From the NCBI GenBank assembly GCA_033030425.1, contig JAUFSD010000008.1, positions 1 to 64,000 of the forward strand: a stretch of DNA of 64,000 nt, written 5' to 3'. The notes beneath the pieces are model-generated. The model made no database searches and was not told where the DNA came from. It saw only the letters and a program-made list of their open reading frames with translations. This DNA comes from Verpa conica (lineage: Eukaryota; Ascomycota; Pezizomycetes; Pezizales; Morchellaceae). Within the stretch, counting starts at the first letter, position 1. Every line of letters starts with the position of its first letter. The position numbers were made by a program, and so were the translations under genes. Positions 2,448 to 50,571 of the stretch are shown here, one piece after another.

Positions 2448-4381
2448 ATGAGTAGGGGACAACTTCACTCTGCACGCTTGGAGGACGGCCACCTACTCCT
2501 TGCCGATAATCTTTTTGACCGGTATAATGCCTATCTTTCATGCCCACAATGCCACCAAAAGGCACCGAACAAGGTTGGGACTTTTCGAAAAAGTAATGCC
2601 GGTAATGCCAATGATAAAGGGGAGAGATACCGCCGCTATATATGTTGTGCAGGTGGTATGGTCTCTCTTAAGAGCATTAGAGCCTCCAAGGGGTCCGAGC
2701 AGAAGCGGTGCACAAAAACACTAAGCACCACTGATTTTATAGCTCTTTGTTTGGAGGACGTCGGAATTGGAAAAGAGAAGGTTGATAGAATTAAAGATGG
2801 GCTACAATATGCCCCAGCATTGAATGGTAACTTGCCGCTATCAATCTATCCATTTGGTATCTTTATATTTAATTGTTTCTTTAGTTATAGTATCAACAAA
2901 CCCCCCCACCAAAAAGCGAAAACTTAGTTTCAGTGGCTTTAACAATACTGGCGTTGGTATGTCTACAAAGTACCAGCGATCGAATGCTGCGAGTCTTTCC
3001 AGAAATATCCCTTCAGCTTCTACCACACCTCTTCCTCCCAGTCATGCAAGTCATGATTGTACTGAGCCGGAACCATACAATGGGCTGCAACTAGAGTCCA
3101 TAAGAAATGATATCCTTACGGCGCAGAAACTACTTGCTACCGCGTTGTCATCTTTAGAAAGCCTGCAATCCTCTACTGCAGGCCGGGTAGCTACTGGTAC
3201 TAGGAGTAATGGTGGAAACATGACAGCAGCTGCCAGTGGAAGTGAATCTCCGGATACCTATTTAAGCCCACCTCGCTGGTTAAGAGAAAGTAAAGGGAAG
3301 GGGAAGGAGAAAGATGCCAACAGGCCATCAACTACTACAGGCTCACTTATAGATGGTAGGAACATTTCCGGTAAAGCCAAAGTGGTACCTGAAGCACATG
3401 TATCCCACCTATCCGCCCGAGCCGCCAGCTTCTCACCAATACTACAGCATCAACCTGGTAAGTCCTGCCAGATGAAGCCTGTTAATATAATTATATCCGT
3501 TGATAATTTCATTTAGACTCAAACGACAACGATCCACCGATTGACGCTCTAAAATCTCTACCAGCATCAAAAGCATCGAAAGGAATGGATAGCTCCAAAG
3601 CGGTACCTGTCTGTCGGCATCTCTATGTCAAAGGCTTCAAACGGCAAAACCTAAGTAGTCTCAAACAAGTATTTCATGATACTTTAGGCTTGAAGCTACG
3701 ACAGGTTCTGAATCTGAGTTGGATTGATGATTCAATTCTGGAAATGATTGTAATGGAGAAGCATGTGGCTGGCGTGACCACAAAGCTTAGCAAGGACCCA
3801 AGCTTTACTTTACTGGAGTCCTTCGACCCTTTGAATCCAGACTGTTATAAATGGGGTGATGGTAAAGTGGCCGGTGGAAGGAAGGGACAGGAGCAGGCTC
3901 TGAGAAGAGCACTTATCAAACGGCTGGCTCAGTCTTCTTCCACCACAAGTAACAGTAAAACAAAGCTGTACCTGTCACATTGGATAGAGAGACGGGGCTG
4001 GAGTAAGGAGTTCACCAAGTACTCCAAGGGAAATGATATGGGGCTTCGAAGTAAAGTATCGAGTCAACCGGATAATGGTAAGCTGAACAATTCTGTTCCC
4101 TTTCACTATAAGAAGATAAGAGTTCTGACTACTCTGTACCACTAGATGACTCCGACAACGACTGTGTCATGGATGGTTTGCTACAACGTCCTCCACCCAT
4201 TGAAGTTCCTACCGACGACGATGATGGTGGTGGGAATAGAACTCCACCTTCTGGTCAACCTGGTGGTAGTGGTACCAATATCTGGTCCCGCCGCTCTGTT
4301 CCCCTCTCCCAAGCCACTACTACTTCCCTATCCTCATCCTCATCTAGTCATGACTCGGATTACTCCATTGAAGAATGTTGA
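2448..4381 (+). CDS. LINE ORF1 protein (zinc ribbon, NLS, RNA-binding-like region), spliced
   Basis: This is the likely RNA-binding/nucleocapsid-type protein of the element. ATG 2448 is the first in-frame ATG. Three GT-AG introns are proposed: 2827-2884 (GTAACT...TTTAG, acceptor 2890 also fits), 3458-3516 (GTAAGT...TTTAG) and 4078-4145 (GTAAGC, branch TTCTGAC, CACTAG). All junctions are phase 1 and rejoin one frame of 582 codons. The N-terminus has a CPQC...YICC zinc-ribbon-like motif (residues about 34-68), unlike the C-terminal CCHC knuckles usual in LINE ORF1. Exon 2 begins with the NLS-like PTKKRKL. Exon 3 holds a compact alpha/beta-like region (HLYVKGFK...). Exon 4 is a Ser/Asp/Gly-rich tail. 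The stop TGA at 4379-4381 overlaps the ORF2 ATG at 4381. Assignment as ORF1 rests on position; I do not recognise the family. Confidence 0.75.
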
Positions 4382-7300
4382 TGGACCTTCGAATCGGATA
4401 TGTGAATGTGCACTCCCTGCAGGACGGGAAGTTTTATCACATTCTGGGGATGTTGGAGAAGAAGTTTGATTTCATTTTTGTTGCGGAACACTGGTACACA
4501 AAGCATGCTAGCAGGCTGGCAAATACGGCGGTGATTGGGACGACGGTCCTACCTCGAGGCTACGCTCAACGACATCTTAAAGGGAGGTTTAGTGGTGGAA
4601 TTTATTTGTTGGCATCAGACAGGTGGAAGGGGCAGGTTCTGGGTGTGGTGGGTGATCAGTATGGGATAGCGGCGAGGTTGAAAGGTTTTTCTTTTGCTGG
4701 TGTCTATTATCCTCCGACCTCTATGACTACGGTGGCTATGGAACAACATCTCCTCAACCTGACAGGAATTGATCTGGTACTTGGAGATATTAATGTCAGG
4801 TTTCCAGGTCAACAGCCTGTTGGTCCTATGGATAGAGTACAAGCCTTTCAACGTTGGCAAGCAGGAGGGAATTTTACTAGAATGGCACCTAGTTTTGGTG
4901 GTGGTAGTGGTGGTAGTGGTAGTGGTAGTGGTAGTCGTGGGATCCCATTGACGACAGATCATGCTTTCATCTCGAATGCCCCGGTGATGGTGAACAGTAC
5001 TCTCACTCTCCATTCATGTCAGGAGTTGAAAATATATACCGATCATAAGTACATGATGGAGGTTGATATTGATGCTGTTGGGATCTTAAACGGTGGTAAT
5101 GCTGGTGGTGGTGGTGGGGTAGATAGTGAAAATGATGGGGTTTTGAGGTTTCGGATTAATAGATTGAGGGGTGGTGAGGGTTTGGCTGCTGGGAATGGGG
5201 TAAAGAGAGGGAAGAAAAAAGATTATGGGAAATTGTTTCGGGAGTCTTGGAGCTTGATGCAGGATATGTGTAATTGGAAAGAGGGGTCGGAAGAGTATGA
5301 TGTGGATATGTTGGACATGTTGCTGGTGGGGAAGTTGCAGTCAATATCGGAGGAGGTTTTGGGAATTGTTAGGCCAACAGTGGAACGGAAAGGTCCGGAT
5401 AGAGTGGTGGGTGGGCTTTCAACCTCGACTGATATCGACGCAGCTATTGGACTATTCAAAAGAATCCAGAGATCTTCCACTGCTGGTAAAACTATCATAT
5501 CCGAACTGGACAGCAGTACACCCATGGAAGAGTGCGAGGCCAAGTATGAGAATGTCTACAACAGCTCCACATCTTCTTCCACGTCTACCACCAATGTGAG
5601 CGGTACTTCCAAGTCTAGCTCCAGTGTTCCATATGGTGAACCTCTGATGGATGATGTGGAGATTACCAGCGTGCTGCTAGATATGGTCTCTGAGAAGCGA
5701 GTCAAGAAGTTCATCTCTAGGTTTCCAGGTAGCAAATCTTGTGGCGAGGATGGTATTCATGCACTACAAATGAAGGCTCTGCTGGATACTTCATTTGTCA
5801 CCGATCTCTCACTCCTCTTCCAGGCCTGCATACTTACTGGCTCTACACCTGAGCGGTGGAACAGATCGATTCTTTACCCTATTCGAAAGGACCCCAGTCT
5901 TCCATACACGGCAGCCAACACAAGGCCTATCTCCATACTGGTAATGTTCAGGAGGGTATTTGAGAGCCTTATACTTCCTGCCTTTGAAGATTCCTCCCTT
6001 CCCTTCAACACGGTTGATGCTGGGCAGGGTGGCTTCCGGAAAGGCTACTCCACTCTTACACATGCTCTCACTCTCCACCATTCTCTGGCGACAAAAGCTC
6101 TCCCCATCGCAGTGTTCCTTGATTTTGAGGCAGCGTTTGATATGGTCAGCAGAGATAGACTGGTGGAGGAGTTGCGTGCTCAGGGTATGCCGGCTCTGCT
6201 GGTACAACTGGTGGTCCAACTCATGTTCACCTCCATGTCCTACAGCCTGATTGTCAATGGTGCCTCTTCTGGTTCCCATCGAAGGGTTGTTGGTATTCCA
6301 CAAGGCTCCCCTCTATCTCCTGTCATGTTCAACAAGTTCGTCAACTCCCTAGTGGTGGCTCTCAATGCTACGGTGTGTGATGCCAGTGGACTGCCCTCTA
6401 GTCTCTTCTTTGCGGATGATGGGGTTCTTATGTGTCGGGATTGGGTGAAAGCTACGGTGCTGCTCGACATATGTGAGCGTTGGGCTGTGGACCATGAGAT
6501 GCGCTTCAAGGTGCCCAAGTGTGGTGTTGTTACTACCAAGACTATGCACAACAGATGGCATACCCCTCTCTCCCTCTATGGAAGTCCTCTGCCTGTGGTC
6601 GATACCTACCGCTACCTTGGCTTCCCTGTCACCTGTGATGGTATAGACTTTGACGCCCATCGGGACAGGATTGTCGAGAAGACCCTTAAGCTCAAAGGTT
6701 TCCTCCAGCTGAGCTCAGACTCTTGGACTCCTCGTGTCAGGCTCAATCTCTTCAAGGTCTACCTACGACCGATCATGGAGTATGGGCTGCCTCTCTTCGA
6801 TGCTTGGGTCAAGTCCGGTGCCTTGGTCAAGTCTCTCAAACCTTTGGAGCTGGCATGGAATGAATGCATGGTGTGGGTAGCTGGTGGTACCTCCAAGCGT
6901 CCCAAGCTCTTTGGCAATCTCTGTGGAGTCCTGGAGATCAGGCCTCGAATGGAACACCTACGCTGTAGCTTCCAACACCATCTCTATACCATGGATGCCA
7001 GCAACCCGCTTCGCAATATTATTGGCTCCCTCCCTGCCAGAAGGCCTAAAACTTTACTGGTTGGCCACCTGGCTTATGATAAGCTGTATGCGAGATTTAG
7101 GGAGGAGACGGTGGGGCTTGTTGGACTTGACGCTGGTAAGGTTAAGGGAAAGTTGGTGGAGTTTCTGGCAGTGGAGAAGAGTTTGGTGGTAGGAAAGAGA
7201 GATGACAAGACTGGGACTATGTTGGCTATAGTGGAGCCAGAAGCTAGACTGGTGGGTCTTGATATGGTGGCCGTACTGGGTATGTTTAATTTCTTATTAT

Positions 7301-7751
7301 TCTATTTTATTTTTTATATTTTTTATTTTTTATTTATTTAATTTATATTGTCCAGCTTGTTTGACTTGGAGGCGAAGTGGAACTGACACTGGGGGGCTTT
7401 AATCATTTAGGTATTCCAAATGGCAAGCAGCAAACTACTTTGTGGGATTGGAGACGGGGACTGTACGGGTTCGGTAGAGTTTGTTTGTGTGGGGTGAGGT
7501 GGGATAGAGGACATGTTCGGTGCATGGCTATGAGTGGTATTCTGACTGGGGTATTGACTGAGGAGGAGGAGGAGCTGATGGAACTCGACAAGGTGTTACA
7601 CCCGCCTGACACCAAATACACCGTGATTGATTATCTTCTCAATATTCGGGCTCATGATAGGGCGTATGATATATTGGCTGAGTGGAGTAAGAGAATGGCT
7701 GATATGTTTGTTGCTGGTCGTGTGGCTGCTGCTAATAACGGGAGTGATTGA
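4381..7751 (+). CDS. LINE ORF2: APE-type endonuclease and reverse transcriptase, with one intron
   Basis: ORF2 is the enzyme of target-primed reverse transcription. An in-frame ATG at 4375 precedes ATG 4381, which overlaps the ORF1 stop as TGATG. The N-terminal APE-like endonuclease (about 1-225) shows VNVHSL, the catalytic Glu in VAEHW, LGDINVRF, TTDHAFIS and the terminal TDHKYM. A Gly/Ser linker is encoded by GGT/AGT repeats. The reverse transcriptase has LDFEAAFD (about 579), GIPQGSPLSP (about 637) and the catalytic FADD (about 676). An intron at 7280-7410 (GTATGT...CTGAC...TTTAG, 131 bases) joins in phase 1 to a C-terminal exon holding a CxC...HxxC knuckle (VCLCGVRWDRGHVRC, about 990). 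Spliced length is 1,079 residues. Without splicing, translation stops at 7341 inside the intron and the knuckle is lost. Confidence 0.85.
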
Positions 7752-8206: not shown

Positions 8207-11200
8207 TAAACCGATCATACATATATGATGGAAGTGGATATTGATGCTGTTGGGATTTTAAGCGCTGGTAATACTGGTGGACAAGTGGATGATAGGAATG
8301 ATGGGGTTTTGAGATTTCAGATAAATAGATTGAGGGGCAGTGCTGGATTGGCTGCTGAGAATCGGTTAAAGAGACGGAAGAAAAAAGACTATGGGAAATT
8401 GTTTCGGGATTCTTGGGACTTGTTGCAGGATGTGTGCAATTGGAAGGAAGGGTCAGAGGAATATGATGTGGACATGTTGGACATGTTACTGGTGGGGAAG
8501 ATGCAATCGATATCGGAGGAGGTTTTGGGAGTTGTCAAGCCAACAGTGGAACGGAGGGGTCCGGATAAGGTGGTCGGCAAGCTTTCAACATCGACGGATG
8601 TTGACTCGGCTATTGGACTGTTCAAAAGAGTCCAGAGATCCTCCACCATTGGGAAAACTATGCTATCTGAAATGGACAACAGTACACCCATGGAAGAGTG
8701 CGAGTCCAAGTATGAGAAAGTCTACAATAGCTCTACTCCCTCTTTCACATCCACGACTGATATAAACAGTGCCTCTGGGTCTGATTCCAGCATTCCATGT
8801 GGTGAACCTCTGATGGATGATGCAGAGATTACCAGCATACTACTAGGTATGGTGTCTGAGAAGCGGGTCAAAAAGTTCATTTCTAGGTTTCCAGGAAGCA
8901 AATCCTGTGGCGAGGATGGTATTCACGCGCTGCAGATGAAAGCCTTACTGGATACCTCTTTCATCACTGATCTCTCACTTCTATTCCAAGCCTGTATACT
9001 TACAGGCTCCACACCTGAACGGTGGAATAGGTCTATTCTCTATCCTATCCGAAAAGACTCCAGTCTCCCGTACACAGCCGCCAACACAAGACCTATCTCC
9101 ATACTGATAATGTTCAGAAGGGTTTTTGAGAGTCTGATAATACCGGCCTTTGAGGATCCCTCCCTTCCCTTCAACACGGTTGATGCTGGACAGGGTGGCT
9201 TCCGGAAAGGCTACTCCACTCTCACACATGCCTTGACTCTCCACCATTCCCTGGCAACCAAAGCTCTTCCAATAGCTGTGTTTCTTGATCTTGAGGCAGC
9301 ATACGATATGGTTGGTAAGGATAAACTGGTGGAGGAATTGCGTGCTCAAGGGATGCCAGCTTTGCTGGTGCGGCTGGTGGTCCAAATTTCATGTTCACTT
9401 CCATGTCTTACAGCCTGATTGTCAATGGTGCCTCTTCAGGTTCCCATAGACGGGTTGTTGGTATTCCACAAGGCTCTCCTCTATCTCCTGTCATGTTCAA
9501 CAAGTTTGTCAACTCCCTTGTGGTGGCGCTCAATGCTACGGTACAGGATGCCAGTGGACTTCCTTCTAGCCTCTTCTTTGCAGATGATGGGGTTCTCATG
9601 TGTCGGGATTGGGTGAAAGCCACGGTGCTGCTTAACATATGTGAGCGGTGGGCTGTCGACCATGACATGCGCTTCAAAGTGCCAAAATGTGGTGTTGTCA
9701 CTACCAAGACGATGCACAACAGGTGGCATACTCCTCTCTCTCTCTATGGAAGTCCTTTGCCAGTTGTTGATACCTACTGCTACCTTGGCTTCCCTGTCAC
9801 CTGTGATGGTATAGACTTTGACGCCCATCGGGACAGGATTGTTGAGAAGACCCTTAAGCTCAAAGGTTTCCTCCAGCTGAGCTCAGACTCTTGGACTCCT
9901 CGAGTCAGGCTCAATCTCTTCAAGGTCTACCTACGACCGATCATGGAGTATGGGCTGCCTCTCTTTGATGCTTGGGTCAAAGCTGGTGCCTGTTTCAAGT
10001 TCCTCAAGCCCTTGGAGCTGGCGTGGAATGAATGCATGGTGTGGGTGGCTGGTGGTACCTCCAAGCGTCCCAAGCTTATAGGCAACCTCTGTGGAGTCCT
10101 GGAGATCAGGCCTCGTATGGAACATCTACGCTGTAGCTTTCAACACCACCTTTATACTATGGATGCTGGCAACCCGCTTAGGAATATTGTTGGCTCCCTC
10201 CCTGCTAGAAAGTCCAAGAAATTGCTGGTTGGCTACTTGGCTTATGATAAGCTGTATGGGAGGTTCAGGGAGGAGACGGTGGGGCTTGTTGGACTCGACG
10301 CTGGTAAAGTGAAGGAAAAGCTGGTAGGATTTTTGGCGGTAGAGAAGAGTTTAGTGGTGGGGAAGAGAGATGATAAGACGGGTACTATGGTGGCTATAGT
10401 GGAGCCGGAGGGTAGGCTGGAGGGCCTTGACATGGTTGCCGTTCTGGGTATGTTTAATATCTTATTTACTTTTTATTTTTTTATTTTTTTATTCATTTTT
10501 TTATTTTTTAATACTGTTTTTGAGACCTTTTTTTATTTTTTATTTTTTTATTTTTTTATTTTATTTTTTTATTTTTTAATACTGTTTTTGAGACCATTTT
10601 TTATTTTTTATTTTTTATTTATTTTTTATTTTTGCTGTTTGACTGGGAGTGGAGATGGGGCTGACCGTAGGGTGCTTTTTTGGTTTAGGCATTTTGAACA
10701 GTAAGCAGCAAACTACTTTGTGGGATTGGAGGCGAGGACTCTACGGGTTTGGAAGAGTTTGTCTGTGTGGGGTTCGGTGGGATAGGGGACATGTTCGTTG
10801 TATGGCTATGAGTGGTATCTTGACTGGGGTTTTGACGGAGAAAGAAAAGGAGCTGATGGAACTCGACAAGGTGTTACACCCGCCTGACACCAAATACACC
10901 GTGATTGATTATCTTCTCAATATCCGGGCACATGACAGGGCGTATGATATATTGGCTGAGTGGAGTAAGAGAATGGCTGATATGTTTGTTGCTGGTCGTG
11001 TGGCTGCTGCTAATAACGGGAGTGATTGATCTTTTTATTCGATTAGTGCTTGTGTCGTCTTTGTGTTTTTTTGTTACTATGGATGCTTCTATTTATTTTC
11101 TCTATTTCTTTTATTTCTTTATTTCTTTTATTTTGCTGGTCTCTTATAAGTTTTGTTCTCTTTTACTTTGACGACACTAGTATTGATGGGGTGGTGTGGA

Positions 11201-17749: not shown

Positions 17750-18646
17750 TTATTTCATATCCGATGACATACGAGCTACTAGTCTTGAAGGACCCGATCT
17801 TCTTTGCTTTCGACCCTTGGCCTGTTTAGGAGGTTTTGCGACTTTAGCATTGTTCGCCGGGGGACGGGCTGGTGCTGCTTTCCCGGGGTTGACTGCAGGT
17901 TTTGTTGCAGGTTTGGGTGCAGGCTTGAGTGCAGGTTTTGTTGCAGGTTTGGGCGCAGGTTTGGGTGCAGGTTTGGTTGCAGGTTTTGTAGCCTTTCCAT
18001 CTGTCTTTGCAGGAGTCTTGGGCTTTGTTGGCGTACTTGTCTTGCGACCGGCCGGCATTGGACAAGCGGCACCAAGTCCTCTCCTCCTGAGTGCTGTGCA
18101 TCCAGCGGTAGGGACATCGAAGATCTCTTTTGGTGTAGTATCTTCGTCCGCCCCACCCTTTCCCCAATGTTTACCTCCCTTTGTCCAAACTACTCTTTCT
18201 ATATCAGGATCTGCAGCGTTGATAGAAACGATTTCGGTTACTTCTGACCCGGGCTTTGTGAGCTCGGGAAGTTCATCGGTATAGAAAACAGTCGTTTTAT
18301 AGGATCGCCCGGCGGCCAGGGGGCCTTGGATGATACGGACTTTACCACTAGCTTGACTGGCGAATACCCGCGATACCTCGTTCCAGAAAGTAGCATGGAA
18401 CCCAACGGGTATCTTGACATCAGTCTTAGCAAGCATTGTTCCGAGGCTGACCCCGCCCTTATCTCTGATGTATTTGTTATCAAGAAAATCATTCATATCC
18501 TTGTAGCTGTCTGGCGCCTTGCCAAACCATAATAGGCACTCGTCTTTTGCTGGTGCTATTGCCGCTTTTTGTACAGCCGTCAACGTTGCTAGGGCAAGCT
18601 GAAGCAGAACAAAGAAAAGAACTGATGAGAGAAAAAAATGCTTCAT
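17750..18646 (-). CDS. Secreted basic protein with Lys-Pro-Ala repeats, function unknown
   Basis: A single 298-residue open frame from an ATG. Residues 1-20 form a strong signal peptide (hydrophobic FFLSSVLFFVLLQLALATL), so the protein is probably secreted. Residues about 22-190 form a globular domain I do not recognise, with WFGKAPDSYKDMN, VIIQGPLAAGRS-like and WTKGGKHWGKGGA segments and only two or three cysteines. Residues about 200-255 are tandem KPAPKPATKPA-type repeats. The C-terminus is strongly basic (KGRKQRRSGPSR). Such a tail could bind cell wall, nucleic acid or acidic surfaces, but that is inference. A TATA-like element lies about 240 bases upstream. Composition and uninterrupted length support a real gene. 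Confidence 0.8.
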   Translation of the reverse strand: MKHFFLSSVLFFVLLQLALATLTAVQKAAIAPAKDECLLWFGKAPDSYKDMNDFLDNKYIRDKGGVSLGTMLAKTDVKIPVGFHATFWNEVSRVFASQASGKVRIIQGPLAAGRSYKTTVFYTDELPELTKPGSEVTEIVSINAADPDIERVVWTKGGKHWGKGGADEDTTPKEIFDVPTAGCTALRRRGLGAACPMPAGRKTSTPTKPKTPAKTDGKATKPATKPAPKPAPKPATKPALKPAPKPATKPAVNPGKAAPARPPANNAKVAKPPKQAKGRKQRRSGPSRLVARMSSDMK

Positions 18647-18883
18647 TGTTTAAAGTTGTATTGTTGTATGGTTGCTGGACCAGCCTATAGCAGAATCAGG
18701 TCTTCGAGATATCGTAGGTTCGTGAATTAGAAAGTCAAGTAAAACGAAAGAATAGAATAATGATGGTATAAAGGGAGCGTTTGAGGGAAATTGGCGTAAA
18801 GGAATGGAGTTGTATGAAGGAATGTATGAAGATACCAGATCTTCCCGTGTTGTTTGTATGATATGTGCTCTGGTAGGGTGCCT

Positions 18884-21177: not shown

Positions 21178-23078
21178 ATGTCCCCCCCGCTATCAGCAGA
21201 GATAATTGCGGAGATTATCCATCATGTATGCCTTTTTATCCTTGTTTTATGTATCAGTGCTAATCCTTCTAGGCCGCCTTCCGCCCGGCCAGCCCCGCTC
21301 TCTCATACGACCATCCGTACCATACCCACCTCCTCGCAAACTTCTGTTCTGTCTCACGTAGCTTTTACACTCTCGCTGGCTCGCTTCTCTATCGCAATGT
21401 CACTGTTCTCAAAGACTGTACTACCTCCCACCTCACCCATAAGCTACTTCCCCTACTCTCGAAAACACAGCGCATCCAACTACTCCAAGAAACAAACACT
21501 GAGGATCCAATAGACCATGAACTCTACTACATGGATCGCATAGCCAACCCTTGTTGGGTTCATAGTCTCATAGTACTTAGTGTTCGTCCTTCTCGCCCGG
21601 GTGAGGAACATATTCCATGGCGGTACCTAGAGGAGGCTGTCTTGGGAATGCAGAACCTACGTTCTATGAGGCTAGAAGCTGCTGGAGGAACACCAAAGCT
21701 CATAGAAACCATCTCTCAGCTCCAAAAACTGAAACACATATCCTGCATCTCGAGCAGTCTCCTGTGCACAACAACCCAGTTCCATCAGTTAAATGGAACC
21801 AGGCTTACTTCCCTCGCTGTCAATCTATGCCCTACCGATACTGAAAATACCGGCGGTCTCCGGAACCTCGTGAAATCTTCGAGCGAGAGTCTAAAAACCT
21901 TACATCTTTACTACTGGCAGCTTTCACCTGCCGTGGCCAACAAACATCTATTTGGAATGCTCCAGGGTGTTGCCTCATTACCCAACCTACGGAACCTCCG
22001 GTTATGCATTGGTGACCTTTCCTCAATCACGCAACTTGGAAAGGCTATTGATTTTAACACATTAACATCCCTACAACTAATACGAAAAGAGACGGCTACA
22101 AGTAATAGCTTCTCAGCTATCCTAGGCAAACTATCAGCCCTTAATAAGTTGAGTGTAGCTTTAACCAGCAACGAAGCTATTGATGTCTTGAACATTTGTA
22201 AAGGACTCCGGGAGATCCATGTGGCGTTCATCAGGCATTGCCGCGGCAATGTTACTTCATTAAATACACCCGAGCAGCTCGTCGAGGCTATTATAAAACA
22301 CAAGAGAACTTTGAAAGCGCTGACTCTGTGCATGCGGTCTAGTGGCTATGAGCGGGCAGAGGTAATAGTACTTAGAGAAAAGGAATTAGAGAGATTGGTA
22401 AAGGAGTGTTCAGGTATAGAAGACCTCAGAATTAATATTGAAGTTGATGATTTTGTAAGTTTCCTATTTATTTCGACAGGAAAACACTAACCCTTATAGA
22501 TTCAAATATGCAATATGCTTCCACGCCTACACCTTCGCAACCTCGCACTCGACCTCATAATCTATGATGGCAGCCCTCTTTCTCTCCCTATCACCTCAAC
22601 TATCACTCCTCTTTCCAAGCAGTGGTACCACCCCAGTCAATCCTACAACAACACCTATGAAGACATTCCGCCAAGTCAGGTCTCTCCCATTGAAAACGCT
22701 CTCTCTTACCTCATATCGGCCTTCATAGTGTATTACCCCAACTCATGGAGGCAGAACACACCACAGTTCATATGCATATCTTCACCAGGTATCAAACCTG
22801 ATATCCTATCTGATCGCTACTCGCAGGCATACATCCTCTACGACCCATCGGAGTCCCCCAAAGTCGATGATGTCAAGAGGTGGTACCAAGGTATCCGTTA
22901 TACTGCACCCTCTGGACAGCGGTTCGAGTGGGAAAACAGTGGGACCAAGGTACATATACAAGTGGTGGATACGATCCCCAGCAGGAAGGATGATTGGAGT
23001 GGAAAGTTGGCGGCATGGAATACGGCCTTCAAATCAGCGAACAGTGCAACAGATATAAAAGAACACGTCATCCGGTAG
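21178..23078 (+). CDS. F-box protein with leucine-rich-repeat-like body
   Basis: F-box proteins recruit targets to SCF ubiquitin ligases through Skp1. Three exons are proposed: 21178-21225, 21273-22454 and 22500-23078. Introns 21226-21272 (GTATGC...GCTAAT...CTAG) and 22455-22499 (GTAAGT...CACTAAC...ATAG) are both phase 0, giving 602 residues. The N-terminal F-box reads LSAEIIAEIIHH, then after the first intron LLANFCSVSRSFYTLAG and LLYRNVTVLKD, the usual F-box pattern. Residues about 130-410 contain irregular Leu-rich segments (LPNLRNLRLCIGDLSSI, LKTLHLYYWQL) that suggest a divergent LRR-like substrate-binding domain. The C-terminal exon has no domain I recognise. Targets are unknown; fungal genomes carry many such rapidly evolving genes. 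Confidence 0.85.
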
Positions 23079-24714: not shown

Positions 24715-27700
24715 ATGGTCAGTGAAATCAATCCAGCTGTGTGATATTTATCCTAATCTCCTTCCCAGAAAGCGCCATTGGAATGTCATGTCTGCGAGAA
24801 AGAGGCTTCGTTCATGTGTACGAAGCGGGGTTGCCTCAAACTCTTCTGCGATATATGCCCCATTTGCCCTACTGGATCATGCAACAATGAAGACCACCGC
24901 AACATGTGCTGGAAGTCTCACCTCCCTCCTCCGTGGTCGAAAGATACTAGGACTCACGAAAAGTGTGCTCTCGAGGACCAAAGATTCGTAAGCGAGATGT
25001 TGTATCGCGAGGAGGATCCGGAAAGACAGAAGATACTGCACCACGAGGATAGAAAGGCACTCTGGTTCATTGTCGAGCCGGGCGAGGAGGTCTTGGTAAG
25101 CTACGACACAGACGAGACGATCAACTGTAATGGGACTTTATACGTTACAAACCGCCTCAGCCGTATCCTGACGATGGATACTCTGCTGGGAGAGCACCAC
25201 CAGTCCCGATTCCCTACATTAGTTTCCTTTATTGGCGAAACAGGAGCTGGGAAATCTACCCTCATTCGAGCCCTACTCAAGGAGTCTTATGGGAGGATTG
25301 AGAACCTCACCAACCAGCAACCGGAGATTGAATGCCCAGTTGTACAAGCCAGTTCTACCGAAAGTCTCGCTCATCCTACAAGCTCAGGTGTTCATTTGTA
25401 CCAAGACCCTAGAACCTCCTCATCGTCACATCCGATTCTTTTTGCCGATTGCGAAGGATTTAACGCCGGCGGTATTAGTGCAGCATCGTTTCCTCAGGAC
25501 CTAGCAACCGACGAGAATGTCTTAGCGAAGTTCAAGATGACCGCACACTCGTACACTACTTCCGTCGATAACGAGGATCTTTACGCGAAATCTCTTTACA
25601 CGTTTAGTGACTGCGTATGTTTTGTCATCAAAAATGCACAGACGGTAGCAAAAAGCATGGAGAGACTTCTTGTTTGGGCAGCAAAGGGGTCTGGGACAGC
25701 AATCCACGTATTGCCTCAAAAGAGCTTGACCTTGATTTTAAATCCGCAATCGCAGCACAATAATGATATTATGGACCAGAAGACTCTCCGTGAGATCTTC
25801 TTGAGCGATCATATGACCTTCTGGAAGGATAATCAGTTGCTAAACAGGATCAAAAACGCGGCATTCAGGGACACCCCCGTCACCCCGGAAAGGTTCCTCC
25901 ATCTTTATTTCAGCACTGTCAACGTGTTCTACATTCCAGATGGGAGCCGGGCGGGGGTTGTACACCCTAGCGATATCCGGCTGCAGATTAGCAAACTATA
26001 TACGCAGATCAGCAATGACGTTGAGTCTATCGCGGATATCCGACAATTGACCTGGACACTGTACAGCGAAAAAGACTTTACGCGCCTATTCTACCTCTCT
26101 CTACAGCATTTTGCAACAACTGATGAGGTTTTCAACTTTTTTGAGGCTACAAAAAGTACGAGTTTGGACCACCGAGGCTTAGAGGGCCACATTCTTGCTT
26201 TGAGAAGACAATTTGCGTCCACCACAGATGCTAATCGTCAAAACCGGTTTCCACCCATCGTTGCATCTGCTCTAGTAAACAAAGTTCTTCGTGAGGATAT
26301 CGCTAGTGAGTAGTAAATTTATTCCTAGTACCACTACCCCCCGCAAACATAGCCCTGACATATTGGGAAAGATTTTAATAAAGAGCTGCAATGGAAGAAA
26401 TGTCACCAGGCGTGTGAAAAAGGAATCGATCGCTTCTACAAGCAATTCCGGACGTGTGAGTTTTCAGAGAAGGGCATAAAGTGCATACAGACATTCAATC
26501 TCCACGGGCCTAGCCACATAGCCAAAGACGGGCGTATAATCAAGAGCGGGGGTTTCCACCTACAACTCGAGGAGATAGAAAAAGTTGTTGCTCTGGAGAC
26601 GGCAGAGGTCGAAGCCCAGTTTATGAAGCAATATGTTGAGATATTCCAGAATGAACAAAACAAAGGTTATCCAGCCCTGGCTAGCATCGTTCGGCATAGA
26701 AAGAATATTCTTCGCCAGGCATATAATCGTGATAGTCCTCTCTATAGTTATAGGACGTGCTTTGCTTGCCTGCATGGAGTTCCTGATCATGTTCTGCCTT
26801 GTGGCCACGCCCTTTGTGAGACCTGTGCAACAGATTTCGGGAGCATAGTGGTTGGACAAGTGGGTGCTTATAGATTTAATAGCTGTATCTTTGATGGACA
26901 GCAATGGATAGGGAAGGAAGCTCAGATAATCAAAATTAAGCCTCTTACTGCGGGGGTGAGGGTTCTTACACTTGATGGAGGAGGAGTTCGCGGAATTCTC
27001 CAAGTGGCGATATTAGGTCTCTTATCGGAAATGATTGGACTTGACTTGCATATCAGTCACTTTTTCGATCTTATCGTCGGCACAAGCACAGGTGAGCAAG
27101 TAACCCCTATGTAAGCGAGATGCAAAATCCTTTCTAATCATAACTAGGTGGCCTAATTGCACTCGGTCTAGGCGTTAAACAGATGGGTCCACTTGATATG
27201 GAGGAAACATTTATCAGCCTGGCGACGAAAACATTCGGTGCGATGCGGGGAGGGGTTGCTTTGGGTATCGGGGTGCTGACCATTGCCGCAGCAGCAGCAG
27301 TTGAACTACCTATCTTAATATTGGCTGGGGGTATCATGCTCGTGACTGGCTGGGGTGCTAATGTGATATATAAACAAAGCCTATACAAAACCGAGCCACT
27401 GAGGAGTGGGATACAGGGACTCTTGGGCACCGAAACAAGTATTTTTGGGAATTCTATACGGCAGATGAAGCAACGCTCGACTAGAGTAGCGGTGATGTGT
27501 ATGAAGGACCCAACCAAAGTTAGCGTAATTACTAATTATAACCGCCCTTTCACTGGTAAATCCCCTACACTTTAGTCTACTCCGTTTTGCTATGATAGCT
27601 CATGCTAATATCCGTTTTTTATAGATTCATTAGCGGCGATTGACTCATTCCCCGATGACTTCGAGCGTGCTGAGAACGAAGAGGAAGAAATAAAGGCTTG

Positions 27701-28871
27701 GGAAGCGTACGTATATCTGATTCTCAAGGGAATTATTTGTGACTCTGACTTATCTTCGAGAAGAGCGCTAGCTACATCTGCGGCACCTCCTTATCTCAAA
27801 CCATTTATAAAGGCTTCTTCAAAGAAAATCTACTTCAATGGGGAGAGGGGACACAAAGATCCGGTTTTCTGGGCAACTAAGGAATTCCGGAAGATATGGG
27901 ACCGGCCAGAGTTAGAGGCAAAGCTGGATGCCATCGTTTCCATTGGGTCAGGAACATTTCCCCCAATAAGCCCCATAAACGGTGCCATTCTTCCGGAAGA
28001 AACCGATCCCAACCCGATGATGACCCTTCTAGTCAGTACTATTAACCAGCTTCAAGGGGAGAAAGCCTTGGACGATTCCATACTAAGTCGGATCCAGTAC
28101 TCGGAGGTTTCCCATCGTCTCAATGTCATTATGGATGGTATTCGATGCGACTTTAGCGACTGCCAAACCATACCCATCTTACTTCTTGCTTTCAATAAGA
28201 TCATCGTGCAGCAGGACCAGCAGCTTATTCCCATCACAAACCCCCCAGGGGTCAATCAATCCCTTCGGGATAAGATAAACCTTGTTGCACATCTCCTTGT
28301 GGCAAAGCTCTTCTTCTTCGAACCTATGGGTCCTGTCACATTGATAAAAGGCACACCTAACAGCACGACTATATTCCAGATCGAAGGGAAAATACTATGC
28401 CGTTTACCACAAGGGTCTAGCCATCTGAGAAGGCTAGTCACCCGTATCGTAGCCTTTTCTGCAATTGAAAGTGAGAATGAAAGAGAGCTCTACCAGATCG
28501 CGAAGACAGATAGAAGGGAACGAATGAGCAACATTGATATTAGAGGAGTCAAAGAAGCAGTAATGAGAGGAGGTGTCTTTGAAGTCAACCACAAAATCAC
28601 AACCTCTAACCCCGGAGAGAACTTTCAAGCCATTTGTGTCGAACTGAAACATGCGGCAGTGGTTCCACAGCTGAAAGTTGGCCATGAAGGCGAGGAATCA
28701 GAAAAGATAACTTTGGGATATATATCAGATAAACTGGCGATTAGTGGTTTCCCGCGCAAAATTTCTGGTAAGTGTACTGCATACTACTTGCGGTGTAAAG
28801 TGGCTGACATATCTCGTGATGTAGGGTTGACGAAGAGATCTCTGACAGCTGACAGGTCAGACTGGCTTTAA
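24715..28871 (+). CDS. Zinc finger - GTPase - RING - patatin-like phospholipase protein
   Basis: A large multidomain protein of about 1,267 residues. Seven exons are proposed, with introns at 24718-24768, 26306-26371, 27092-27147, 27556-27624, 27707-27760 and 28768-28824. All are GT-AG and frame-consistent. Exon 1 is only the ATG; splicing to 24769 gives MKAPLECHVC. Residues 7-50 are a B-box-like Cys/His cluster. A P-loop GETGAGKST (157-165) and DCEG (228-231) mark a GTPase of dynamin/GBP or septin-like type, though no clear NKxD is seen. A RING-like motif CFAC...CGHALCETC (643-668) precedes a patatin domain with oxyanion hole DGGGVRG (715-721) and nucleophile elbow GTSTG (750-754). The expected catalytic Asp (DGG/DGA) appears as Asn in FNGERG (about 943). 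Similar fungal proteins are annotated FabD/lysophospholipase-like. A role in stress or non-self response is plausible but inferred. Confidence 0.85.
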
Positions 28872-45988: not shown

Positions 45989-46003
45989 GGTTATGAGCCC
46001 GGC
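45989..46003 (+). other. Primer-binding site matching the anticodon arm of initiator tRNA-Met
   Basis: GGTTATGAGCCCGGC directly follows the LTR. Its complement (GCCGGGCTCATAACC) contains GGGCTCATAACC, the 3' part of the anticodon stem-loop of initiator tRNA-Met. Drosophila copia is known to prime from an internal half-molecule of this tRNA. The usual TGG match to a tRNA CCA end is absent, which supports the half-tRNA mode. Confidence 0.7.
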
Positions 46004-46143
46004 TGCACACAACAGCTAACTCTAATCTCACAACAACACTGGCGTCTTCTGCTGTTACCTCTCCTGCTCGCTCAACCTCTCCAACCCTATCCGAACTAGA
46101 CCTCCTCACATACCCTGAGTTATCACTCAACCATCCCATCGAA

Positions 46144-49100
46144 ATGTCGAACAACGGCGAACCCTCTGGCACACAAGACCCGATTGAGGAGAAAGTTGAA
46201 GAACTAAACCTCTCCTTCTCGGAACGCGTCAGTAAGGACAAACCTATCACCATCAAACTCGACAATGTGCGCCCTCTCGAGGGTCAACACAACTACAACA
46301 CATGGGCAGCCGTGATGAAAATCATCCTGAAAGGGATGAAGGTCTACGAAATCGTGGTGGACGGAGCTGAACCACCAACCGGTTCAAGCGCAAAAGAGAA
46401 AGCAGCATATGAATCCCTATGCAACCAAGCCTCAGCGGTCTTCATTCAGGTTGTTTCAACCGATCTTTTGGAGAAAATCATCGAACTGGAACATCCCCAC
46501 AAAATGTGGACTTACCTGAGAGCAGAATTCTATCGTGACACTGCTTATGCCATGGTCTCTCAGATCATGAACCTCACAAACCTCTCAGTTACCTACGACC
46601 CTTCCCTACCTATTTCACAGTTTATCTCATCGTTCGAAACCGAGTGGCTAAGGCTCTATAAAATGGCCAAAAGCTCCAAAGACGACTATCGAGTACTGTT
46701 CGCAAAGTTCCTGGAACAAGACAAGGCAAAACGAGACTTCCTGCTTGGCTTTATTGTTAAGCATCATTCAAATGTCGTGGACAATTTGTCTACGAAAGAC
46801 GACCTCACTTTCTCGGATGTCAAACAACGCCTCCTCGAACTCAGCCATCAAGACACCTCCTCCCTTCCCGATCAGCAAGCCCTTTTTGCGGCAAAACAAA
46901 AACAAAAAACCTACAAAAAGCCTGTTATCACGGCTCCACCTCCCAAAACTGATGTTGAAACTTGTTCCTGGTGCAACGCACATCGTAAAGATGCGCCTCT
47001 AAAAGACAGACAACACAAATGGGAAGCCTGCGACAAGCTGAAGGCAATGCAAGCTGAAAGGAAGAAGAACAAGAAAGGGAAATCGGAAAAGGCACTGGTT
47101 ACAACGGGGAAAGACTCTGACTCGGTAAGAAGAAACTCCCTATTCTACTTTGACACTGGAGCAACCTCTCATATGTGCCCCCTCGCAGAACGGTTCGAGT
47201 CTCTCCAGACATGTTCCGGATTTGTGAAGTCCTCTTCAAAGGCTTCAATGGCGATAAAGGGAAAAGGCACTGTGATGATGGACTCTGTGTTAAATGATGG
47301 GACTATTTCTTCTTTTCGTGTTCATGATGTTTTATTTGTACCTGAACTAGAGCGACCGTTACTTTCTTGGAGGAAAATCAAGGAAAAGGGATATACCATG
47401 GTTGGTAAAGGGGATCTGATTTCAATTGTTAAGCATAATAAAATTCTTTTCGAAGCAGTTTTTGACGGAACACTCTTCAAAATACCCGAAGTAAACGACG
47501 CAGCATTCCTCACATTTGACTTTTGGCACTCTGCTCTAGGACACCTAGCCCCAAGCTCTATTGAAAAGGCTAAGGAACTTTACAGTGACGCCTCAGTCAT
47601 ACCACAGGCACCAACAAACTTTCACTGCCCCCAATGTTCACTCTCGAAGTCTACACACAGCAAACCAAAATCTTCCAATACACGAGCTACCCAGAAGTTG
47701 GAACTGATACACTCCGACCTATGTGGCCCCTTCCCAGTACCTAGCTACGGAAACTCCCTCTATTACATCACCTTTATCGATGACAAAACCAGAGTCTCCT
47801 GGGTTCGGTTCCTAAAGAAGAAGTCAGAAACGGCGAAAGCTATTGAAGATTTCGTCAAGGAAGTTGAACTTCAGTACAGTCTCCCTGTCAAAAGGTTTAG
47901 GACTGACAATGGAGGAGAGTATGTCAACAACACCCTGTTGACCTTCTTTGCAAACAAAGGGATCGTGCACGAACTAACACCACCATACTCCCCCGAGTCA
48001 AATGGTGTTGCTGAACGACTGAACAGAACCATTGGTGAAGCTGTGAGAGCCATGATACTCCCCCTCGGAGACAAACGATTATGGGCCGATGCTGTCGCCA
48101 CCTTCATTTACATCAAAAACCGTCAACCACACTCAAGTGTCAAGAATCAGACACCCTATGAGTGCTTCCACGATATAAAACCAACGATTCATCACCTCCA
48201 ACCCTTTGGCAGAGAATGCTATGTGCACATACCTGAAAATAAACGCTCAGCTGGCAGCAAACTCTCTCCTAGGGCAACTAGAGGAATCTTTACCGGATAC
48301 ACCAATGTCAACCATCACTACCGAGTGTTCCTACCAGAAGAAAAGAAGTCAGTCATAACAGGCGATGTCTTCTTTCCACCTCTGAAGCCAGAAGGGGCTC
48401 AGTTAACGAGCAAAACCCCCATCAAACATGTTGTACGGAAATCACCCAACACATCTATCTCCTACACAGAGACTGAAGGGTTTCCAACTGACGAGATGTG
48501 GTTCAACTGGATGGATCGCAACCCTGAGACTGCAAACACCTGGTTTCATCAAGGGCATCCTAAGGTCACTACTCTCTTTCAGCAAGCGTACGAAAACGGA
48601 AAACGTGACGGCTTCCTAGGACCTCAATTCTGGGAATTTCAAAACCCAACTCCTTCAATTCAATCTTCCAACAATGATGATCTATACGTTAACCCGAATA
48701 ACATTCCACCCTCACCTACACCCTCTGCAATGGACCTTGACTCGTTAGTCGGCTCACTTCGACTTTCACAAGCGGCACAGTCAGATCCTATGTCAGAAGC
48801 ATCACACCATCCACAGTTACCCCTCGATGAATCCCTACCTTCCTTCCACTCTTCATTTCAGGCTCCTAGAACTCGCTACGGCAGAGAGATACACCCTCCA
48901 AGAGAATGGTGGATAGTACCTCGAGTACCTACTCCTCCTCCTGCATCTTCGGAACATGGGTCCACTCTACCTGACGCTGAACCTCTCATGATTGAAGACA
49001 CACCATCGGAAGATACCATTCTGGTGTCAGTTCTCGAAGTCAATGAACCTAAGACCTACCGACAAGCAGTTAATTCAGCTGACTCGGATAAATGGACTCT

Positions 49101-50571
49101 GGCCATGAACGAAGAACTTGATTCACTTAAAGAGAATGAAGTATGGGATGTGGTTGATAAACCACCACAAAGAAATATCGTGGACTCTAAGTGGGTATTC
49201 AAGGTAAAAGGTGATGCCAACGGACAAGTTGAACGATACAAGGCTAGATTAGTCGCAAAAGGGTTTTCACAAGAACATGGCCTTGACTACGACGAAGTCT
49301 TCTCTCCCGTTGTTCGCTTCGACTCCCTACGGCTTCTACTTGCCATCACCGCCATAAAAGGCTGGCGAGTCCGTCAACTGGATGTTAAAACGGCGTTTCT
49401 TTACGGAATCTTGAACAAGGAAATCTACATGCAACTACCTGAAGGCAGCAGGTCAGACAACAAAGTTGCAAGACTAAAACGGTGTATTTATGGTTTGAAG
49501 CAATCCCCAAGGGAGTGGTACGGCAGGCTGGTTACCTACCTCCAACCTTACGGGTTCTCTTCTTCTGCTTTTGATCCATGTGTCCTAACCCACAGCTCTG
49601 GTGAAATATTCCTGGCCATCTATGTGGACGACATCACTCTTTTTGGACCTGATAACGACCTAGTCGAGCAGTCCGTACAACTTATGAAGTCGGAATTCAA
49701 AGTCAATGACATGGGCTCTCTAAACTATCTCCTCGGCATCCAAATCGAGTACAACAAGGACGGAATATCCCTATCGCAAACTGCATTTATCGATAAGATC
49801 CTATCACGCTTCTCAATGTCAGATTGCAACCCAGTCACCACGCCCATCGACCCTAACCATCGTCTGATGAAGGCTTGTGATAATGACGAACGGGTCAATG
49901 CAACTGAGTACAGACAGATAATAGGCTCTCTTATGTATCTCGTCACTGCGACTAGGCCCGACCTTGCCTACACAATAACTCACCTATCTCAATTCTGTTC
50001 GGACCCAACAAAAGTACATCTCAACGCTGCAAAGCGTGTACTCCGCTACCTTAAAGGCACAAAGAACCGGAAACTAATCTATCCTACCGGCACCTCTTTA
50101 CATCTATCCGCTTACACTGATGCATCTCACGGAAACTGTCTCGATACAAGAAGAAGCTTTTCTGGCTACCTCTTTCAACTAGGCCAATCAACCATATCCT
50201 GGTGTTCCCGAAAACAAAAATCAGTCGCCACCTCCACCTGCGAGGCTGAATACATGGCACTGGCTATGACGGCGAAACACTACCTATGGCTGACTCGTGC
50301 AATTAACGAGTTGTTAAAGACCCAGATTCCTCACGCTCTTCTCTGTGACAGCAACTCCGCTGACGATATTGCTCGCAACCCTAAGCTAAACGATAGATCC
50401 AAACACATAGACATCTCCTACCACTTCGTTCGAGAACTCGTCGAAAACGGAACGATCAATCTATTACATGTTGCCTCTGCGGATAACTTTGCAGACATTT
50501 GCACCAAGGGTTTACCACGACAGACACACGACCACTTATGTAGTTACATTTTTAACGAGACTACAAAGTGA
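46144..50571 (+). CDS. Copia gag-pol polyprotein
   Basis: A single 1,475-residue frame in the order gag, protease, integrase, reverse transcriptase, RNase H, diagnostic of Copia. Gag (about 1-300) has the retrotran_gag pattern (LEGQHNYNTWAAVMK) and a zinc knuckle-like CSWC...HKWEAC (about 273-295). The protease active site is FDTGATSH (about 336). Integrase shows the HHCC finger (HSALGH...CPQC), first Asp in DLCGPF (about 525), second in TDNGGEY (about 587) and Glu in GVAERLNR (about 623). Reverse transcriptase has LDVKTAFLYG (about 1078), IYGLKQSPREWY and YVDD (about 1159). RNase H has YTDASH (about 1322) and EAEYMAL (about 1367). No frameshift or stop separates gag and pol. All catalytic residues are present, so the element is probably active. 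Confidence 0.97.
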   Translation: MSNNGEPSGTQDPIEEKVEELNLSFSERVSKDKPITIKLDNVRPLEGQHNYNTWAAVMKIILKGMKVYEIVVDGAEPPTGSSAKEKAAYESLCNQASAVFIQVVSTDLLEKIIELEHPHKMWTYLRAEFYRDTAYAMVSQIMNLTNLSVTYDPSLPISQFISSFETEWLRLYKMAKSSKDDYRVLFAKFLEQDKAKRDFLLGFIVKHHSNVVDNLSTKDDLTFSDVKQRLLELSHQDTSSLPDQQALFAAKQKQKTYKKPVITAPPPKTDVETCSWCNAHRKDAPLKDRQHKWEACDKLKAMQAERKKNKKGKSEKALVTTGKDSDSVRRNSLFYFDTGATSHMCPLAERFESLQTCSGFVKSSSKASMAIKGKGTVMMDSVLNDGTISSFRVHDVLFVPELERPLLSWRKIKEKGYTMVGKGDLISIVKHNKILFEAVFDGTLFKIPEVNDAAFLTFDFWHSALGHLAPSSIEKAKELYSDASVIPQAPTNFHCPQCSLSKSTHSKPKSSNTRATQKLELIHSDLCGPFPVPSYGNSLYYITFIDDKTRVSWVRFLKKKSETAKAIEDFVKEVELQYSLPVKRFRTDNGGEYVNNTLLTFFANKGIVHELTPPYSPESNGVAERLNRTIGEAVRAMILPLGDKRLWADAVATFIYIKNRQPHSSVKNQTPYECFHDIKPTIHHLQPFGRECYVHIPENKRSAGSKLSPRATRGIFTGYTNVNHHYRVFLPEEKKSVITGDVFFPPLKPEGAQLTSKTPIKHVVRKSPNTSISYTETEGFPTDEMWFNWMDRNPETANTWFHQGHPKVTTLFQQAYENGKRDGFLGPQFWEFQNPTPSIQSSNNDDLYVNPNNIPPSPTPSAMDLDSLVGSLRLSQAAQSDPMSEASHHPQLPLDESLPSFHSSFQAPRTRYGREIHPPREWWIVPRVPTPPPASSEHGSTLPDAEPLMIEDTPSEDTILVSVLEVNEPKTYRQAVNSADSDKWTLAMNEELDSLKENEVWDVVDKPPQRNIVDSKWVFKVKGDANGQVERYKARLVAKGFSQEHGLDYDEVFSPVVRFDSLRLLLAITAIKGWRVRQLDVKTAFLYGILNKEIYMQLPEGSRSDNKVARLKRCIYGLKQSPREWYGRLVTYLQPYGFSSSAFDPCVLTHSSGEIFLAIYVDDITLFGPDNDLVEQSVQLMKSEFKVNDMGSLNYLLGIQIEYNKDGISLSQTAFIDKILSRFSMSDCNPVTTPIDPNHRLMKACDNDERVNATEYRQIIGSLMYLVTATRPDLAYTITHLSQFCSDPTKVHLNAAKRVLRYLKGTKNRKLIYPTGTSLHLSAYTDASHGNCLDTRRSFSGYLFQLGQSTISWCSRKQKSVATSTCEAEYMALAMTAKHYLWLTRAINELLKTQIPHALLCDSNSADDIARNPKLNDRSKHIDISYHFVRELVENGTINLLHVASADNFADICTKGLPRQTHDHLCSYIFNETTK

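Follow-up and report, generated by a model that had tools for sequence, protein, structure and literature searches.

A family of proteins that is widespread in the Pezizomycotina combines, as read from sequence, an N-terminal finger, a P-loop NTPase, a CCHH knuckle, a RING, a CapV-type patatin domain and a C-terminal region. The member described here has lost the catalytic aspartate of its patatin domain and has kept its core NTPase motifs and zinc ligands, with Asp as the eighth RING ligand. In this large family outside the NLRs, a CapV-type patatin is joined to an NTPase and to zinc modules, and the lipase dyad has been lost repeatedly with the rest kept. We propose, with a probability of roughly 0.4, that these proteins are nucleotide-controlled regulators in which the lipase is the output of complete members, and that the copy studied here is probably a lipase-dead partner. 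The family-wide pattern of a kept switch and a lost lipase is a more interesting result than the reading of this single copy as an effector.

Gene structure and genomic context

The window, by which we mean the whole 64-kb stretch of DNA analyzed, opens a contig of 1.88 Mb, one of 25 contigs that make up the 45.8-Mb genome. The gene occupies 24715..28871 on the + strand, as do all of its features given below, and is modeled with six predicted coding exons (corrected CDS 24715-24717, 24769-26305, 26372-27091, 27148-27555, 27625-27706 and 27764-28871) that encode 1285 aa, with GT..AG introns, no stop and family homology along most of the length. The initial gene model joined open frames at GT..AG sites, and the acceptor at 26372 was picked by eye because the resulting length fits that of homologue P0001. 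Comparison with relatives added an easily missed in-frame intron of 57 bases (27707-27763), absent from the initial annotation; an intron lies at the identical WEA^ junction in the paralogue C18, and the metagenome protein P0179 seems, by eye, to read through the equivalent junction. The first exon, which consists of the ATG only, is tentative, and the C-terminus is uncertain, with an alternative end possible through a candidate donor at 28768.

The spliced model and the family alignment bear out the initial claim that a single gene spans 24715-28871 on this strand with its modules in the order finger, NTPase, RING and patatin. Collinear homologues and the same layout in C18 likewise uphold the view that the single protein is the family architecture and no fusion artefact. 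The module list itself was right about the finger, the P-loop, the RING-like finger and the patatin domain, but it overlooked both the knuckle at 26455-26517 and the loss of the catalytic Asp. Patatin is the only Pfam family to exceed its cut-off in the joined protein.

Several other features were recorded in the window. LINE-type reverse transcriptase-like ORFs were recognized by eye at 4372-7341 and 8210-10704 (+), the second split across two frames, as was a 1524-aa Ty1/copia polyprotein-like ORF at 45997-50571 (+). Near the contig start lies a minisatellite with 13- and 39-base units (218-813); no TTAGGG or CCCTAA runs of two or more were found within the 64-kb window. Upstream of the gene, the ORF at 21273-22490 (+) is F-box/LRR-like by eye and has only a weak LRR match (E 0.0043). 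A 299-aa ORF at 17750-18649 (-) begins, as judged by eye, like a signal peptide and matches ADP-ribosyl cyclase weakly and below the cut-off (PF02267, E 3.1e-4). The segment 30758-31960 (-) encodes a protein rich in Thr and Val whose tandem repeats recur in the DNA at periods of 78 to 174 bases.

A family across the Pezizomycotina

Among 7989 scored candidates, 269 homologues were found at E<=0.001, and the best 120 of these 269 were examined. Together with the window protein and C18 they make up a family alignment of 122 proteins; the sample is ranked by similarity to the window protein, a ranking that favours intact P-loops. The window protein is collinear with these best 120 of 269, two of which are without the P-loop part. 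The six homologues examined for their source come from Geoglossomycetes, Orbiliomycetes, Eurotiomycetes, Pezizomycetes, Dothideomycetes and Sordariomycetes, six classes of the Pezizomycotina.

The NTPase and zinc modules

Sequence and family alignment place a Walker A (G1) motif, GETGAGKST, at 25234..25260, a switch I-like HPTSSGVHLY, with a Thr invariant in the family, at 25372..25401, and a G3-like DCEG at 25447..25458. These marks of a TRAFAC-type GTPase (G1 GETGAGKST, the switch Thr of PTSSG and the DxxG-type DCEG) are all present in the window. The P-loop Lys accounts for 119 of 120 letters among the 122 aligned proteins (two are gapped and one has Ile), and the switch Thr, like each of D, E and G in DxEG, for 120 of 120. 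The G4 place (25735..25752), located in the same way, reads ILNPQS and has no NKxD. Where [NT]KxD would be expected, the family mostly has N-A-[TS]-[ED] (NAPN in C18, NPQS in the window). What was initially called a P-loop GTPase therefore keeps its P-loop, switch Thr and DxEG but is a GTPase only putatively, since this copy has no NKxD and the family mostly reads otherwise; as far as sequence indicates, the GTP specificity of this NTPase is doubtful, and with the G4 motif absent, GTP-switch behaviour is a proposal only.

The window copy departs from near-invariant sites of the NTPase region at 13 of 51 positions, compared with 5 of 51 in C18 and 8 of 48 in P0001, a level reached by only 6 of the 122 rows, the window included. 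The window NTPase is therefore itself divergent, its core motifs nonetheless kept. Matches of an NTPase profile to PDB chains were weak (E 0.0043 or worse) and fell chiefly around the P-loop. By the resemblance of its motifs the family NTPase might be taken for a GTPase of the GBP/atlastin type; an assignment to that class found no support in these weak PDB matches. At E 0.1, neither the window protein nor any of six homologues that were scanned matched NACHT or NB-ARC, which by domain rules out a fungal NLR among these proteins.

The family alignment defines an N-terminal Cys/His finger at 24784..24921. About a fifth of the family is gapped across it, and one of its Cys is found in 96 of 97 letters (25 gaps among the 122 aligned). 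The best that its profile yields among PDB chains is MID1 (E 0.024) and the CBP ZZ domain (E 0.091), so that of the B-box-like finger initially described the Cys/His finger stands, but its B-box/ZZ likeness is weak (E 0.024 or worse). In the interval between NTPase and RING, at 26455..26517, sequence and alignment reveal a C-x8-C-x6-H-x3-H knuckle. Both Cys are present in all 122 aligned proteins and the last His in 121; the strict C..C..H-x3-H pattern occurs in 60 of 122, and the remaining 62 have, by eye, two Cys and two His at other spacing.

The RING-like finger lies at 26758..26895 by family alignment, each of seven ligands being found in 121 or 122 of the 122 proteins. Compared with the C3HC4 pattern, the window copy keeps seven of eight ligands, and the eighth is Asp. 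Across the 122 proteins this position is His in 87, Cys in 22, Glu in 8, Asp in 2, Asn in 1 and a gap in 2; because the family varies here, we dropped a reading of the eighth ligand as broken. The RING falls under the Pfam cut-offs in the window copy, as the P-loop does under every one of them, yet both assignments are firm because these elements are near-invariant in the family alignment.

The patatin domain and its altered catalytic motif

The joined protein matches Patatin (PF01734) with 51.2 bits (E 2.3e-13, cut-off 27.7), so the patatin phospholipase domain claimed initially is real as a domain. Its sequence contains the anion-binding motif GGGVRG (26977..26994), and the family alignment supports a GxSxG nucleophile box, GTSTG (27079..27149), with its Ser present and split by the intron 27092-27147. 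The Pfam match extends to position 169 in a profile of 191 (residue 931) and falls short of Asn 942, the catalytic-Asp site. Here, by alignment with the family and with close relatives, FNGERGHKDP (27834..27863) replaces the DGG/DGA motif and the catalytic Asp has become Asn. The Asp of DG[A/G] is present in 110 of 122 family members, and also in 4 of 4 close metagenome relatives that cover the site, one of which reads DSG. The whole motif is altered in the window, from DGG..NNP to NGE..KDP, and the near-invariant Trp986 is replaced.

Over the patatin domain the window copy departs from near-invariant sites at 5 of 53 positions; the counts for C18 and P0001, whose lipase dyads are intact, are 4 of 53 and 7 of 50. 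Identity to the close metagenome relatives is 64-71% in exon 2 and 50-53% in exon 6. Genes of two of the relatives, compared on an inferred pairing of exons, are 72.5% identical in exon 2 versus 62.5% in exon 6; exon 6 thus diverges faster among relatives too, and its divergence alone is no sign of relaxed constraint. A hydrophobic insert, located by its 19-residue hydropathy maximum, lies within the domain at 27249..27371. Its value of 2.34 is the highest of the 122 proteins (the next is C18 at 1.64, and the median is 0.43), and the insert could be in contact with a membrane. The end of the patatin domain and a conserved C-terminal region follow at 27864..28754, ending near ISGFP, where PF28431 falls in relatives. 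This family, precomputed for many homologues, is C-terminal to patatin, and P0176, which starts past the patatin domain, carries it.

Recurrent loss of the lipase dyad

Loss of catalytic residues is not confined to the window copy. Across the 122 proteins the nucleophile Ser is kept in 97, the Asp in 110 and both in 95, and 27 have lost Ser, Asp or both. We built one tree with FastTree from 1186 columns, excluding the two catalytic sites, and a second with IQ-TREE from the NTPase-to-RING part alone, with no patatin column; two short rows (P0022 and P0098) were left out. On each tree the state of the dyad requires at least nine changes, and the starred branches force nine; these changes are undirected, come from quick tree methods and include flagged long branches. 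The FastTree phylogeny contains a clade of 17 members of which 16 are lipase-dead; none of the 17 has lost the P-loop, the switch Thr, DxEG or any of seven RING ligands. Such recurrent loss suggests that lipase activity is dispensable for some members. With another residue in place of its catalytic Asp, and in a family where the lipase is lost time and again, the window copy does not support the active membrane-attacking lipase envisaged initially.

Six species are represented by two named rows among the best 120 of 269 homologues, though in one case the rows may come from two strains. Live and dead forms occur together in two of them, Annulohypoxylon maeteangense (P0058, P0111) and Xylaria scruposa (P0053, P0118), and two live forms in the other four, a co-occurrence that lends weak support to a live/dead partnership.

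Paralogues in the same genome

Searches of the genome with the NTPase returned C8, C18 and C2; C10 and C12 came to light with the patatin and the RING as queries. C18 is complete in P-loop NTPase, RING and lipase dyad. In exon 2 the nearest paralogue is about 40% identical to the window copy. C2 has GETGHGKST, ADCEG, SAGG and DGG in its frames and is complete by motifs only, and the reading of its Ser spans a presumed intron. In the duplicated pair C10 and C12, 99.6% identical over 5.7 kb, the P-loop reads GGRFKTQ or GGRSKTQ, DYTP stands in place of DCEG, and GTSSG and DGG are kept. Single stops inside some of the C2, C10 and C12 matches were taken as introns; since they are only presumed to be so, these three genes could be broken. 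Judged by motifs, a single genome would hold complete, lipase-dead and switch-dead forms. The switch-dead paralogue is carried on two duplicated blocks (L027/L028), one of 5.75 kb at 99.6% identity and one of 1.79 kb at 99.3%, which run in opposite directions in the numbering of the contigs.

A proposed regulator and its alternatives

In the nucleotide-controlled regulator that we propose, the NTPase would be a switch whose state depends on nucleotide and on assembly, and the zinc modules would bind partners, perhaps E2/ubiquitin. In complete members the switch would gate the phospholipase, through which a response to intracellular stress or to non-self would act. The window copy can probably not give this output; most likely it would partner complete paralogues such as C18 as a lipase-dead damper, scaffold or sensor, an assembly that is itself a proposal. 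Observations in favour include these: the P-loop, DxEG and RING are near-invariant while 27 of 122 proteins are without Ser or Asp; the dyad changes at least nine times on two trees, with a 17-member clade in which 16 are lipase-dead and the switch is kept; Asp is kept in the 4 of 4 close relatives that cover the site; the same genome holds C18, which is complete, C2, complete by motifs only, and C10/C12, which by their motifs have the reverse defect; and the patatin is closest to CapV. Against it stand, among others, the absence of the G4 motif, the departure of the window NTPase from 13 of 51 near-invariant sites, the finding of live and dead forms together in only 2 of the 6 two-row species among the best 120 of 269, and the effect of the Asp change in CapV described below.

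The same NTPase divergence, matched by so few of the 122 rows, would be expected of a paralogue that is becoming a pseudogene, its lipase gone and the remainder decaying in a transposon-rich contig end. The change of the Asp and its neighbours at a site where Asp stands in each of the four close relatives that reach it, the replaced Trp986, a long end branch (1.31) and the LINE- and copia-like ORFs in the same 64 kb fit this account, which we nevertheless hold to be rather unlikely: 1285 codons run without a stop between GT..AG introns, exon 2 remains 64-71% identical to metagenome relatives, the patatin departures (5/53) lie between those of the dyad-intact C18 and P0001, and the core NTPase motifs and zinc ligands are kept. 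An ordinary protein of lipid metabolism or membrane remodelling, whose NTPase would serve for assembly in the manner of dynamin or septin and which would have no part in immunity, is likewise unlikely. Among solved structures iPLA2-beta, too, is close (6.5e-27), and the P-loop is weakly similar to septin, smg-9 and IRG chains and to the bacterial LeoA/LeoBC models, but repeated loss of catalysis fits a housekeeping enzyme poorly, as do opposite-defect paralogues in one genome, if those are intact genes.

It is quite improbable that the window copy is after all an active sensor-effector, an NTPase-gated membrane-attacking lipase in which Asn substitutes for Asp. The Ser box and oxyanion glycines are intact and the lineage is near CapV, but the entire Asp motif is altered, recurrent loss suggests that some members do without lipase activity, and in CapV, according to the portions of PMC9095652 available to us, the Asp is part of the catalytic dyad. 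The same portions report that the phenotype of CapV Q329R survives a change of the nucleophile Ser and is abolished by D197A, and that the Asp change, unlike the Ser change, also lowered ligand binding; Asp-dead copies of the present family could therefore be simply null. A bolder idea is that of complementary halves, in which a switch-kept, lipase-lost protein (the window copy) and lipase-kept, switch-lost proteins (C10/C12) split sensing from killing and must meet. We regard it as very improbable, in part because C10 and C12 are intact genes only by presumption; if true, it would parallel sensor/helper pairs outside the NLRs, with a lipase of the CBASS type at its base. That two adjacent genes were wrongly joined is hardly credible: nothing was found in its favour, and we reject such an artefact on the grounds that homologues annotated by others span NTPase, RING and patatin and that C18 has the same layout. 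The pattern in the family raises the questions of which function the switch and fingers serve in copies with a dead lipase and of whether lipase-dead and switch-dead paralogues act jointly.

Comparison with known systems

No description of the finger-NTPase-RING-patatin architecture was found among the matches listed from openly licensed PMC papers, as far as the text of these matches extends. In the passages at hand, the fungal-immunity literature treats patatin mainly as an NLR domain and in places also elsewhere (PMC4835503, PMC10197012); fungal NLR patatins are nearly always paired with NB-ARC (PMC4986451), and a patatin-TPR gene, of an architecture that differs from the present family, is carried in a fungal transposon (PMC6737239). 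Excerpts on Podospora anserina describe Pfam patatin genes as enriched among those up-regulated in incompatibility, 6 of 9 (PMC3689799), and non-NLR patatin genes, which may or may not belong to the present family, as apparently induced by bacterial non-self (PMC4835503).

A profile built from 61 sequences was compared with solved structures and found CapV first (2.8e-34), then other bacterial patatins, iPLA2-beta (PLA2G6, PDB 6aun; 6.5e-27) and patatin-17 (2.7e-13). The initial link to bacterial antiphage patatins is thus well founded, the closest solved relatives being CBASS effectors. For all four homologues tried in PADLOC, the best matches were 'Effector / Phospholipase' models (2.5e-27 to 1.4e-44), which we take to be CBASS models. 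iPLA2-beta shares the patatin domain with the window protein; it has ankyrin repeats and is not known to carry an NTPase or RING. The family RING profile matches RNF141 (1.2e-4), TRIM34 and TRIM5, and the N-terminal finger weakly resembles the MID1 B-box; unlike RING proteins of the RNF141 and TRIM kinds, the family has an NTPase that separates the fingers, and its E3 role is only putative.

CapV, the cGAMP-activated phospholipase of CBASS (PDB 8zr9), is alike in its patatin domain, both as the top-scoring solved structure and through the PADLOC models. CapV itself is short, with 364 residues in 8zr9, and a cyclic dinucleotide switches this effector on, whereas the window protein is eukaryotic, places its patatin behind an NTPase and zinc modules and has lost the Asp. 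NLRs of the PLP-1 and vic2 type likewise unite a patatin and a nucleotide-binding domain in one fungal protein, as parts of PMC12881547 and PMC3689799 describe, and cell death by PLP-1 requires both patatin activity and the nucleotide-binding motif (PMC12881547). In PLP-1, however, the patatin is N-terminal and is followed by NB-ARC and TPR, whereas the window protein has a C-terminal patatin, a P-loop without an NB-ARC or NACHT match, and zinc modules instead of repeats.
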